Below, one piece after another: positions 733 to 60,800 of a DNA stretch of 64,000 bases; the stretch's first letter is position 1; each line of letters begins with the position of its first letter. The translations under genes and the position numbers were made by a program. This DNA is from Sacculina carcini (lineage: Eukaryota > Arthropoda > Thecostraca > Sacculinidae): positions 158,501 to 222,500 of the forward strand of contig OU696572.1 of NCBI GenBank assembly GCA_916048095.2, read 5' to 3'. Below the pieces are notes generated by a model. It ran no database searches. It was not told the origin of the DNA and saw only the letters and a program-made list of their open reading frames with translations.

Positions 733-3700
733 GTCAGTCACCACGCCACGTCTCCTCAGCAATATACATTCAAATACAAAACACAGCATAACTGAGATGA
801 TCGGTGTTGTTGCTGGCTTATGTCGTTGTCATGGCAACTATGATTCATATCAAGTGTGGATCATAGTTGTCATGACAACTATGATTCATATCAAGTGTGG
901 ATCAAGTTGTCATGGCAACTATGATTCATATCAAGTGTGGATCATAGTTGTCATGACAACTATGATTCATATCAATTGTGGATCATAGTTGTCATGACAA
1001 CTATGATTCATATCAAGTGTGGATCATAGTTGTCATGACAACTATGATTCATATCAAGTGTGGATCATAGTTTTCATGACAACTATGATTCATATCAAGT
1101 GTGGATCATAGTTGTCATGGCAACTATGATTCATATCAAGTGTGGATCATAGTTGTCATGACAACTATGATTCATATCAAGTGTGGATCATAGTTGTCAT
1201 GGCAACTATGATTCATATCAAGTGTGGATCATAGTTGTCATGGCAACTATGATTCATATCAAGTGTGTATCAAGTTGTTGTGTTCTTGATCAACTGCTGT
1301 CATTTGTTGAACTTCAACAGAGTCGTGGTCATGTGGAATGTGTTCAATTGCTGCTTGATTATGGAGCTGATGTGAACGTGTTTTGTGACGCGGGGGCGAC
1401 TGCTCTCTCGCTCTGTCTGTCTGTTCTGCATCCTCTGTCAAGTCTCGACCAGAGCTTCTCACAACTGCCCCTCTTCAACATGACTCGCACTCAAAAAGTT
1501 ATCTGCCAAACAATCACCATTGTTCTCACATTGATGCCATTTTCCAATATACTCAAAATGGATGATATTTTACATTTTTGTTTGTATTTAATTCGACTTA
1601 ATATTTTGTGGTTATTAATTCTGAGTATCGTTGATACCACATGATTCAGTGTTGCAATGTGTTGTCTGTATTCAGCTTTCAGAACGCACGTTTATCTGGC
1701 AGGGAGGTGAATTGATCAAGTTCGACTCAAATCAGGACAACACAACTAGTCAAGACTCGACAGCTCATAATAACACCGAGTACCGGGCAATATTACACTC
1801 AGTATATTACATTACATGCATCATATACCTGCCGATTATGTTTGTTTTTGAAAGTATTTCACAAATGTTTGAAGCAGTCACAGGCATAATATTTGTACAA
1901 AATCTCTCACCTGAATATGTTCAACATACTTTAATTCAACTAGTCTTTTAAATAGTAAAATACCGAAATTGTGAATTTAGTAGGAGTGTGTCGACTATTA
2001 GCGTTTGTGTTTGCGTGTGCCACACAGACACCAAGATTGCATAATCTGCAATGATGCAGTAGAAGTTGTGCAAGAATCACGTGAGGGCTGCGACGATGCA
2101 CGTCGTCTCGCGTCTCACTTCACTTCTCTCACGTCACTCGCACCGCGCGCCACTTCACTAACTCGCTCTTGCGTCTCCACACAGCACGCCAGTACGACAG
2201 CAGTCTCACTCCGACATCATCACCGCGACGTCAAGCACAACACCAACGCTCATCAAACTATGTGTGTTCACTTGCTAGGCTACTATTTACAAGCGGCTCG
2301 CTCCAACTCCGCTTCCAACAGCAGGTGGCTATGCTCATGTTGCTGTGAGTCAGTATGTGTTGTCATGTATGTGAGTCAGTATGTGTTGTCATGTATGTGA
2401 GTCAGTATGTATTGTCATGTATGTGAGTCAGTATGTGTTGTCATGTATGTGAGTCATTATGTGTTGTCATGTATGTGAGTCAGTATGTATTGTCATGTAT
2501 GTGAGTCAGTATGTGTTGTCATGTATGTGAGTCAGTATGTATTGTCATGTATGTGAGTCATTATGTGTTGTCATGTATGTGAGTCAGTATGTGTTGTCAT
2601 GTATGTGAGTCAGTATGTGTTGTCATGTATGTGAGTCAGTATGTGTTGTCATGTATGTGAGTCAGTATGTGTTGTCATGTATGTGAGTCAGTATGTGTTG
2701 TCATGTATGTGAGTCAGTATGTTTTGTCATGTATGTGAGTCAGTATGTGTTGTCATGTATGTGAGTCAGTATGTATTGTCATGTATGTGAGTCAGTATGT
2801 GTTGTCATGTATGTGAGTCAGTATGTGTTGTCATTTATGTGAGTCAGTATGTATTGTCATGTATGTGAGTCAGTATGTGTTGTCATGTATGTGAGTCAGT
2901 ATGTGTTGTCATGTATGTGAGTCAGTATGTGTTGTCATGTATGTGAGTCAGTATGTATTGTCATGTATGTGAGTCAGTATGTGTTGTCATGTATGTGAGT
3001 CAGTATGTGTTGTCATGTATGTGAGTCAGTATGTGTTGTCATGTATGTGAGTCAGTATGTGTTGTCATGTATGTGAGTCAGTATGTGTTGTCATGTATGT
3101 GAGTCAGTATGTATTGTCATGTATGTGAGTCAGTATGTATTGTCATGTATGTGAGTCAGTATGTGTTGTCATGTATGTGAGTCAGTATGTATTGTCATGT
3201 ATGTGAGTCAGTATGTGTTGTCATGTATGTGAGTCAGTATGTGTTGTCATGTATGTGAGTCAGTATGTGTTGTCATGTATGTGAGTCAGTATGTGTTGTC
3301 ATGTATGTGAGTCAGTATGTATTGTCATGTATGTGAGTCAGTATGTGTTGTCATGTATGTGAGTCAGTATGTGTTGTCATGTATGTGAGTCAGTATGTAT
3401 TGTCATGTATGTGAGTCAGTATGTGTTGTCATGTATATGAGTCAGTATGTGTTGTCATGTATGTGAGTCAGTATGTGTTGTCATGTATGTGAGTCAGTAT
3501 GTGTTGTCTTGTATGTGAGTCAGTATGTGTTGTCATGTATGTGAGTAAGTATGTGTTGTCATGTATGTGAGTCAGTATGTATTGTCATGTATGTGAGTCA
3601 GTATGTATTGTCATGTATGTGAGTCAGTATGTGTTGTCATGTATGTGAGTCAGTATGTGTTGTCATGTATGTGAGTCAGTATGTGTTGTCATGTATGTGA

Positions 3701-57800: not shown

Positions 57801-60800
57801 CTCTCCGATCTGGTACCATTTTTAAGACAAACGACCAAAAGTGACTTAACATAATTTAGCTAACATCGAAAAAAGGAGCATAACCATCAAAATATAATTT
57901 TAAGTGGAAAGCTCATACAAATGCGAAATACACTAATTACAAATGTAAATATTTTTAGTAATGGTCGCAATAATGTTCTATATATTTTTTCAATGGAACT
58001 TTTTATCAAATAGCACGTACTACAGTAGCGTAAACACTGCATGTGTGAATGCCCCCCGTCCTCCCATATGTCAAACGTGGGATAATGGCGCTATCTCACG
58101 CCCTGAAAATCACTTGCAAATTCCTGTTAAAGTAGATACGTACTGTCAAGTGCTACAGTGCAGTATCTGGTATAGAGAGCTCACACATCGTACTATACCA
58201 CGCTCCTAACATCTCACGACACCCTCCGGTTCGTGGACATTTACTAAAATGGAATTACACTTTCCTGCGTACCCAAAAACGTATAAATATCGAGTAGCAC
58301 GGATATTAAGATGTCTATCAATTGCTAAATCCTAACAGCAGAAATGTTGACATTTCTTGATCTTCAGACCTAATATTCCATCTCTTTTCCTATTTTATCC
58401 TCATATATACCGTTTTTGTGTCTCTTATCTGCAAAAAGTCACCAAACTTTGTGGTTAACCTACCTAATAACAAGAAAAATAACAAAAGGTAACCTGACGA
58501 TAAAAAAGTAACCTTAAAAGCAAAAAAGTAACCTAACGATGAAAAAGTAACTTTTGGTAACCTAATAACTTTTTTAATAATTATCGTACACAACTTTTTC
58601 ATGCAGTTTTAGGTAGCTTAGGAAAAAGTGACCTTTAGGTGAAAAAGTAACTTTATTAACTTTTGACAGCCCTAGTCATCACACATTCATCACTGTCATC
58701 ACACATTCATCACTGTCATTACACATTCATCACTGTCATTACACATTCATCACTGTCATTACACATTCATCACTGTCATTACACATTCATCACTGTCATT
58801 ACACATTCATCACTGTCATTACACATTCATCACTGTCATCACACATTCATCACTGTCATTACACATTCATCACTGTCATTACACATTCATCACTGTCATT
58901 ACACATTCATTAAGTCCATCACCACACAATTATCACATGATTTCGTTTTTGCTCATTTGTCTGACAATGTATAGTGGGCTTATGTGTTTATGTTTTAAAT
59001 TGCGTAAATATTGACTTGACAAACTTGCATAAACTTCGAAAATGGAAACTGATCATTAAAAAGAACATTAATGAGTTAACGTAACAATTGACTTTATATA
59101 TAATTATTTTCTATTTACATAATTATTTAATCAAGTTATCCTTGCAGCAGGAAATACTTGTGCATACTGATTGAGGTGACTCAAATGCACACGTTACAGA
59201 GTGAGAAACGGGCGGGCAAGGAGAGTTTATTGTTAGTGGAGCACCCACCTGGAACCACTGGGTAAAGTGGAGGCAGAAACGGAGTTGCCAGAGGTACCAG
59301 AGGAACGTATGATGCACGAGCGTTGTCGGCATCAACACCGCCCAACAGCGCCTGTTATCAAACATAGCCAATTCATAAGTGAGCATCGAAATAGCAACAA
59401 TTATGCAATTTTCCACAGGAAAAGCCTAATTTGTCATACTTTAATAATAATTTACATTAACAAAATCAAATATTACACTTACAAAATCAAGTACATTAAC
59501 AAAATCAAATATTAAAATCAAATAGAATAACAGCCTCACATGGAAAACATCGTACAAATGAGCGAGAAGATATTACGGACCAGTTCATGTTTCTTCAAAC
59601 TAAACCAGTTATTCATGTGACAATGTGCAAGTGTATATATATATATATATATATATGTGTGTGTGTGTAATTTTGTAATTTGTAATTTCAAATTTATTGT
59701 CATCAACAACAAACATCAGTAACATAGCAGTGGTGAGAGGCATCAATTCATCGAGCCACAGCTTCCTGACCAACCAATATCAAACACAATTTCCACATGA
59801 AACTACACCAACAGTAATGGCAAATTTGGCAAAAATACAAAACGAAGACAAGAATTAAACACTCATTTATAGCAAGCTCATAGTTGAAACACGGTGTGTG
59901 TGTGTGTGCGTGTGTATGTATGTATGTGTGTGTGTGTGTGTGTGTGTGTGTGTGTGTGTGTAAGAATAGAATAGTTAGAAGCAAGAATAGTTAATCATAG
60001 ATAAATAAATAGTTAAAATCAGACTACTGAAATAGGAAGTCGGTGTTAGAAACAGTGAGAAAGATTGGGTATACAGAAGAAAGGCGAACACAAAAAGAAA
60101 AAGAAATAGTCGAAAAAGAGAAAGACGGAGATATAGATGAAAAATAAACGGAAAATAAACGCAAAAAACATATATAAAGAGAGAGAGAGAGGATAACACA
60201 AGGAAATATAAATATGGGAGAGGGGCGTGTGAGACCGCAGTATTGGTGGACAACGCTGGACGACCCAGTGAAATATTGGGCATTGAAGGACTGCTGTACA
60301 ATTGTGACATTGTGGATCCCTGCCACGGAGCCGCAGACCACAGCGAGGAAGAGCCAGTAGTGTACACCACGCCGCCAGATGTCGCTAGTGTGTCCGACGC
60401 TCCGCGCAAATTTAATGCACCACTCTCCTCAACAAACACACACACAGCACGTGAATTACAGCTGCTACGATACGCCGACGATATATTGCGACAAACTCGG
60501 CGCATGCCACAAATGATTGTCAAAATGCGCCACAATATGCCGCATTATACAATCAGTTCATACGATGAGTGCATACCTCGTGAATGGTGGACGACTTGGA
60601 CAGAGCAGTACGCGACACATGATTGGCGCTTGAGGAAGTGGGTGAGGCGATATCTGACTCCGGTGTACTCAAACTACCGCTATCCACTGACATCATAAAC
60701 AAACACACACACACACACACAAACATACACAGGCACAAGCATATACACACCGTATCAACTCATTGTCGGATTGAATATTAACAATAATAACAATTAATAA

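Follow-up and report, generated by a model that had tools for sequence, protein, structure and literature searches.

Minisatellites that overlap exon-intron boundaries have been described before, and the closest counterparts of the arrays treated here, which lie in introns of a 64,000-nucleotide stretch of DNA (contig C3:158501-222500, hereafter the window), are the mirages of amphioxus. According to the available parts of two papers (PMC3087553; PMC3902484), mirages are minisatellite-like repeats spanning an exon-intron boundary, as in Adh3, the globins BflGb6/BflGb9, TnC, PGBD5 and other loci for which references are given. Their units measure 10-160 bp and differ between loci, mirages occur at donors and acceptors, many but not all units keep AG/GT, and mirages are said to leave regular splicing undisturbed. 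Introns may also be gained by tandem duplication of AGGT segments, for which the accessible portion of PMC4974935 gives a case in potato RdRp and for which a model by Rogers is cited in the part of PMC3087553 that was available. Moreover, in human genes of segmental duplications, internal tandem repeats with units of about 30 bp and a mean of about four copies lie at exon-intron boundaries, and it is stated that new introns can arise from minisatellite expansion at such boundaries (PMC2812944, in its accessible text). The statement of an initial sequence-only reading of the window, that no described system behaves like its arrays, is thus contradicted by the mirages as portrayed in the available text of PMC3087553 and PMC3902484.

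The window belongs to a genome of 264 Mb in 43 contigs and contains two genes of interest. On the minus strand, between 63 and 39 kb, lies a gene for a class IIa histone deacetylase (HDAC; HDAC7 1e-138, HDAC4 1.1e-136), while a gene on the plus strand, within the initial 12 kb, encodes ankyrin repeats and a MYND finger by Pfam matches and resembles ANKMY1. The pattern of arrays carrying splice junctions is real in these genes, and it is mostly a fresh instance of the mirage arrangement. Its new parts, established on a small sample, are the measured tendency of arrays to lie close to intron ends and a GU-rich tract at the 3' end of introns.

Splice junctions within tandem arrays

Exon borders were placed by frame, phase and spliced alignment. 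In the HDAC gene, the exon at 53666..53848 (minus strand; spliced alignment and phase) ends with ...LLKQ at donor 53665, which is thereby confirmed with phase 0 on both sides. A composite array of 24- and 26-bp units (50513..53674, minus strand) runs across this junction (53666|53665) and includes nine exonic bases. The pattern CTCAAGCA[GC]GTG occurs 48 times including the junction itself, with CAG|GTG present in 39 of the 48 occurrences; 11 of the CAG|GTG copies outscore the true donor, and the junction 24-mer has 45 copies. The 26 genome matches found for this array all fall within the array itself; such searches score the best candidates only and skip very common words.

The acceptor 54734 of the same gene was likewise confirmed. 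It opens the exon at 54513..54733 (minus strand; ...LLEQ), whose phase 1 agrees with that of donor 59248. A 20-bp array extending from 54729 to about 57449 (minus strand) reaches five bases into the exon, and these bases, TGATG, are carried by the repeat unit. Including the junction, GACAGTGATG occurs 111 times, copies being counted by pattern since indels break a fixed register. The array continues at 58675..58910 (minus strand) beyond an inserted element at 57450..58674 (no strand assigned), which ends in TAGGGCTGTC...GACAGCCCTA and has the 8-bp flank GTCATCAC on both sides. The 8-bp target duplication suggests a hAT-like class for this element, which entered the array once the array had formed.

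In the ANKMY1-like gene, donor 7651 (GCC AAC ATT CGC AAG|gtagtc) was confirmed. The exon leading up to it (7431..7650, plus strand) is an open frame whose upstream intron has phase 2 on both sides, in agreement with donor 6835; its coding score is 7.0 nats over 73 codons, where the codon usage was trained on 1603 codons of these same genes and the score is thus not independent, and a Pfam search with this exon gave no match. An array of 23 units of 39 bp (7631..8529, plus strand) spans the junction (7650|7651), its first unit starting 20 bp inside the exon. An alternative exon reading through the array, in which the frame is open throughout, was rejected at -15.9 nats over 293 codons by the same coding score. 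The GT in the register of the junction is kept in none of the 22 further copies; a shifted site, TTG|GTAAGA, is present in 8 of the 22 and scores above the true donor. Furthermore, no unit has diverged as far as the one at the junction, which matches the consensus at 32 of 39 positions as opposed to 37-39 in the others, as is expected if the exon holds that unit while the others homogenise. All 11 genome matches found for this array lie within it.

Two further cases complete the picture. At the HDAC donor 63166 (CTTCAG|gtacatcc), a 39-bp duplication of 1.9 copies (63099..63173, minus strand) spans the boundary with seven exonic bases and has its second copy 39 bp further, which bears out the two-copy case that had been reported. 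Donor 63166 has phase 0 and mismatches the next placeable exon at 61572; an exon between these positions was probably missed in the HDAC model. Outside the window, an array at an acceptor of CCT5 (locus L030) has the unit ...gtgtgtcag|TGTGAATCGTTGTCACCGGCACAT, which includes 24 exonic bases coding for the conserved VNRCHRHM (human VNSCHRQM). The junction 24-mer has 11 copies within this intron, and seven near-exact copies keep the splice signal.

The sequence-only reading had placed arrays with exonic bases at exon-intron boundaries at 2345, 7651, 53665 and 54734, and the latter three proved to be real junctions in independent arrays, to which the CCT5 acceptor adds a further one. At 2345 the claim fell: a donor there shifts the Ank-coding frame and was rejected, while the donor at 2325 (AACAGCAG|gtggct) matches the phase of the acceptor at 4490 (ttggtcag; phase 2 on both sides). 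The corresponding array of 79 units of 26 bp (2344..4399, plus strand) therefore starts 19 bp inside the intron (2325..4490, plus strand) and is not junction-spanning. Likewise, the proposal that the equivalent splice sites in each transcript number from tens to more than a hundred agrees with the sequence at 53665 and 54734 and fails at 7651. Splicing would presumably still use the outermost site.

Arrays close to the ends of introns

The proximity of arrays to junctions was evaluated in eight genes, namely the ANKMY1-like gene, HDAC, CCT2, CCT4, CCT5, UGDH, RHOA and DCAF13, with 47 complete introns and 34 minisatellite regions; the CCT genes were chosen for conservation and easy alignment, not for repeats. 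Distances were taken in the array-free residual of the intron, with a threshold of at most 25 bp from a junction, and compared with 100,000 draws. In total, 20 of the 34 regions lie within this distance (19 by raw gap), while 7.6 are expected (p 0.00000). Array edges are enriched at junctions also in the genes outside the window, where 11 of 17 regions lie within 25 bp versus 4.2 expected (p 0.00000). In addition, the longest array per intron abuts a junction in 23 of 30 cases (7.5 expected), as do 12 of 13 arrays of at least 300 bp (4.3 expected). Within the window, such junction-abutting arrays include a GT-rich 13-bp array (7234..7426, plus strand) that stops 4 bp before the intron end at 7430, an array of 35 units of 26 bp (40112..41016, minus strand) that starts 18 bp inside the intron after the GC donor 41034, and a CA-rich array (42744..44809, minus strand) that starts 10 bp after the GC donor 44819.

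The introns entered this analysis by different routes. The five complete introns of the ANKMY1-like gene were set by hand from frame and phase, guided by the Ank/MYND matches instead of a spliced alignment. The HDAC alignment comprised 62 introns, most of them spurious, in the poorly conserved N-terminal half and across the array at 53.6-50.5 kb, and 13 entries were kept; acceptors 61572 and 59352 were placed by eye. Of the other genes, 6 of 7 introns were kept for CCT2, 7 of 9 for CCT4, 6 of 6 for CCT5, 9 of 17 for UGDH, 3 of 3 for RHOA and 1 of 32 for DCAF13, and the alignments of AGPS and CNOT10 were noise and excluded whole. The HDAC intron 63166-61572 was excluded from the array tests for its phase mismatch, which reduced 48 introns to 47 and 37 minisatellite regions to 34; a first run with this doubtful intron gave 21 of 37 versus 7.8, and dropping it changed no conclusion of these tests. 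It is still counted in the tallies of junction 24-mers, acceptor composition, AC/GT coupling and array orientation.

The second general feature concerns acceptors. At positions -20 to -5 of 51 acceptors in the eight genes, T accounts for 0.43-0.45, G for 0.36-0.38, C for 0.10-0.11 and A for 0.08-0.09 of bases. A GU-rich tract hence replaces the polypyrimidine tract, alike in the window and in the other genes and despite the aligner that placed most acceptors rewarding pyrimidines; such a replacement would be of interest to splicing research in its own right. A search of the open-access literature on GU-rich 3' tracts, intronic tandem repeats near splice sites and chaetognath introns returned no matching work. 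In keeping with this composition, each of the 13 arrays lying against an acceptor is rich in GT when read on the sense strand, where GT makes up 0.40-0.96 of its dinucleotides, and none is CA-rich; a fourteenth row, with a raw gap of 2726, was created by the residual measure and is an artefact. On the donor side the arrays (17 rows) are mixed and comprise CA-rich, GT-rich and other kinds.

The best explanation, to which a probability of about 0.6 is given, is the ordinary birth of minisatellites and microsatellites in low-complexity intron ends, where arrays are fenced by exons and sometimes overlap the junction. Arrays would be born by tandem duplication, slippage and unequal exchange in a repeat-rich genome, with a preference for the outermost 25 or so bases at either end of an intron; the low complexity of sequence close to splice sites, such as the GU-rich 3' tract, is the probable reason. 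They would then extend into the intron, because growth into the exon would be selected against, and wherever the seed happened to overlap the junction, the unit would carry the splice site with a few exonic bases, giving rise to the mirage arrangement. Seeding by splice-proximal sequence is probable, and a local birth is suggested by the arrays at 7651 and 53665, since whatever matches the searches found for them lie in their own introns only.

Several points weigh against this explanation. When introns are assumed to have measured no more than 150 bp at the time the arrays arose, the excess weakens to 20 of 34 versus 13.8 (p 0.019), or 11 of 17 versus 7.3 in the other genes (p 0.044) and 9 of 17 versus 6.5 in the window genes (p 0.15). 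Microsatellites abut junctions in 9 of 21 cases versus 3.2 under the loose null, whereas 7.4 are expected once introns are capped at 150 bp (p 0.30); outside the window they give no clear excess (4 of 14 versus 2.0, p 0.096). The sample comprises eight genes, whose junctions were read from sequence alone. As donor-side arrays are mixed, explanation by a seed covers mainly acceptors, and array orientation is not independent evidence, since pre-acceptor ends are GT-rich anyway. A check that used no gene models, on 21 randomly drawn 10-kb loci, found open, coding-like sequence behind a YAG downstream of 12 of 92 GT-rich arrays as compared with 4 of 92 at the other flank; this result agrees with the explanation and is weak (Fisher p 0.03, Wilcoxon p 0.12).

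It is conceivable, if doubtful, that intron ends in this animal are a general birthplace of arrays: low-complexity sequence near splice sites, the GU-rich tract that stands in place of the polypyrimidine tract included, would seed repeats that come to make up most of the intron, and the splicing signal itself would make introns grow and occasionally duplicate a junction. Should the excess near intron ends extend to the whole genome, arrays would be a main route of intron growth in this lineage, fed by splice signals, mirages would not be peculiar to cephalochordates, and natural introns with dozens of like splice sites would offer material for studying how the spliceosome chooses one of them.

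The GU-rich tract at the 51 acceptors, found in window and other genes, and the sense GT-richness of all 13 acceptor-abutting arrays, with no CA-rich one among them, would also be accounted for if arrays at intron ends were kept by selection as splicing signals, the GU-rich repeats serving as the 3' tract. Such an origin is unlikely, since it leaves the donor-side arrays unexplained, arrays several hundred bases long are larger than a tract could plausibly need to be, and the nine introns of UGDH are free of arrays although most of their ends are GT-rich.

Arrays make up 37-74% of intron bases in HDAC, the ANKMY1-like gene and the three CCT genes, and 0-30% in UGDH, RHOA and DCAF13. At arbitrary loci (L009-L029), they occupy 32,926 of 210,000 bases (15.7%; 7,500 of the bases read N) in 90 minisatellite and 84 microsatellite regions. 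Matches to CCT-family exons at C12:8442276, C18:2062504 and C15:8169635 fall within reading frames that run without a stop for 1871, 1791 and 1001 amino acids, which gives the impression that arrays devoid of stops border the exons. Satellite-like tandem repeats of approximately 390-460 bp, several of them with CCCGCCCGTTGTGCGGA, were noted at 24801-29818 of the window. GC donors were listed at 44819 and 41034 in HDAC (minus strand; 2 of 35 listed donors) and in the first RHOA intron (locus L012, 3915, plus strand).

Proposed junction copying and other possible origins of the arrays

The sequence-only reading had proposed a recurrent process that duplicates splice junctions and then expands them. 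A dedicated process of this kind, such as breakage linked to RNA or to the spliceosome, would be in line with five junctions bearing spanning repeats with differing units, with the duplication at 63166 that is still at two copies and with the clustering of arrays at intron ends. Its expected outcome, an excess of spanning arrays, did not emerge. When spanning is defined as an exon overlap of at least five bases, and seeding is random in array-free introns, 3 of the 34 minisatellite regions are spanning versus 3.6-4.9 expected, and outside the window 1 of 17 versus 2.0-2.8. An earlier tally with the doubtful HDAC intron gave 4 of 37 versus 3.6-5.0. Two arrays, those at 7651 and 63166, do not enter the denominator of 34 regions, as their introns are not closed; adding both by hand yields 5 of 36, which is still near expectation.

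The recurrence of junctions was also scored for 100 junctions of the eight genes by means of a 24-mer of 12 exonic and 12 intronic bases, sought within 4 kb with at least 20 of 24 positions matching. It recurs at 3 of 36 junctions in the two window genes and, in the remaining six genes, at 1 of 64, namely the CCT5 acceptor. When the 24-mer takes 6 bases from the exon and 18 from the intron, it recurs at 5 of 36 and 3 of 64, three of these being simple GT tracts. For comparison, in five genes, complex 24-mers from the interior of introns recur in 1472 of 3538 cases and those from the interior of exons in 1 of 667. Since spanning arrays occur at the level of random seeding, there is no call for a junction-copying process, and with a single recurring junction among the 64 scored in the other genes, such a process is quite improbable.

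It is very unlikely that some of the arrays are copies from a satellite family scattered over the genome that came to lie in introns, their splice-like GTGAG arising by chance. The 26-bp unit of the array at 2344-4399 does have relatives of 81-93% identity on four other contigs (C2, C19, C26 and C37), and the 20-bp unit has look-alikes in the genome, all of them distant at 73-79% identity. Against this stand the arrays at 7651 and 53665, for which matches were found in their own introns only, in searches that skip very common words, and which each share exonic bases with their own exon.

In zebrafish, AC(m)-GT(n) introns have AC and GT repeats near their ends, and while some of the present introns combine a CA-rich start with a GT-rich end, a zebrafish-like pairing of AC repeats near donors with GT repeats near acceptors that would join the splice sites is highly implausible, because starts and ends are uncoupled (Spearman -0.09, p 0.54, 46 introns), with GT-rich ends in 2 of 7 introns with strongly AC-rich starts versus 27 of 46 overall. 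GT-rich starts rather accompany GT-rich ends (Spearman 0.34, p 0.022).

Comparison with known systems

The identity of the host bears on any comparison with amphioxus. Eight Hox-type homeobox matches of 64-100% identity are clustered on one contig (C25, 452-944 kb), one of them being 100% identical to the query homeodomain, and 29 innexin matches were found in the genome. A COX1 search gave no match. Hox-type homeoboxes and innexins mark the host as a bilaterian, and innexins in such number would speak for a protostome and against amphioxus. The host genome is hence probably other than that of a cephalochordate. In the open-access literature searched, no mirages were reported outside cephalochordates.

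Among the known systems, the zebrafish introns resemble the present ones in the AC and GT repeats near their ends and differ in that AC-rich starts are here uncoupled from GT-rich ends. The gain of introns by AGGT duplication, as presented in the available parts of the papers cited above, shares the duplicated splice-site sequence, whereas the duplicates described here stay within one intron. The human internal tandem repeats are alike in the expansion of boundary minisatellites and constitute the nearest work outside cephalochordates; kilobase arrays do not appear in the accessible text of PMC2812944.

The closest likeness is that to mirages, whose sequence criteria the present arrays fit. 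The repeat unit spans the boundary at 7651 (20 exonic bases), 53665 (9), 54734 (5), 63166 (7) and CCT5 (24), and does not do so at 2345. Both boundary types are represented, with three donors and two acceptors, and AG/GT is kept by the units at 53665, 54734 and CCT5, as opposed to 0 of 22 copies in junction register at 7651. As regards undisturbed splicing, and the length and somatic instability that further characterise mirages, the present data comprise the agreement of frame and phase and one assembly, respectively. The present arrays, known here from their DNA sequence only, are nevertheless set apart from amphioxus mirages by a host that is probably not a cephalochordate, by arrays of more than 100 units and by a measured excess of arrays at the ends of introns.

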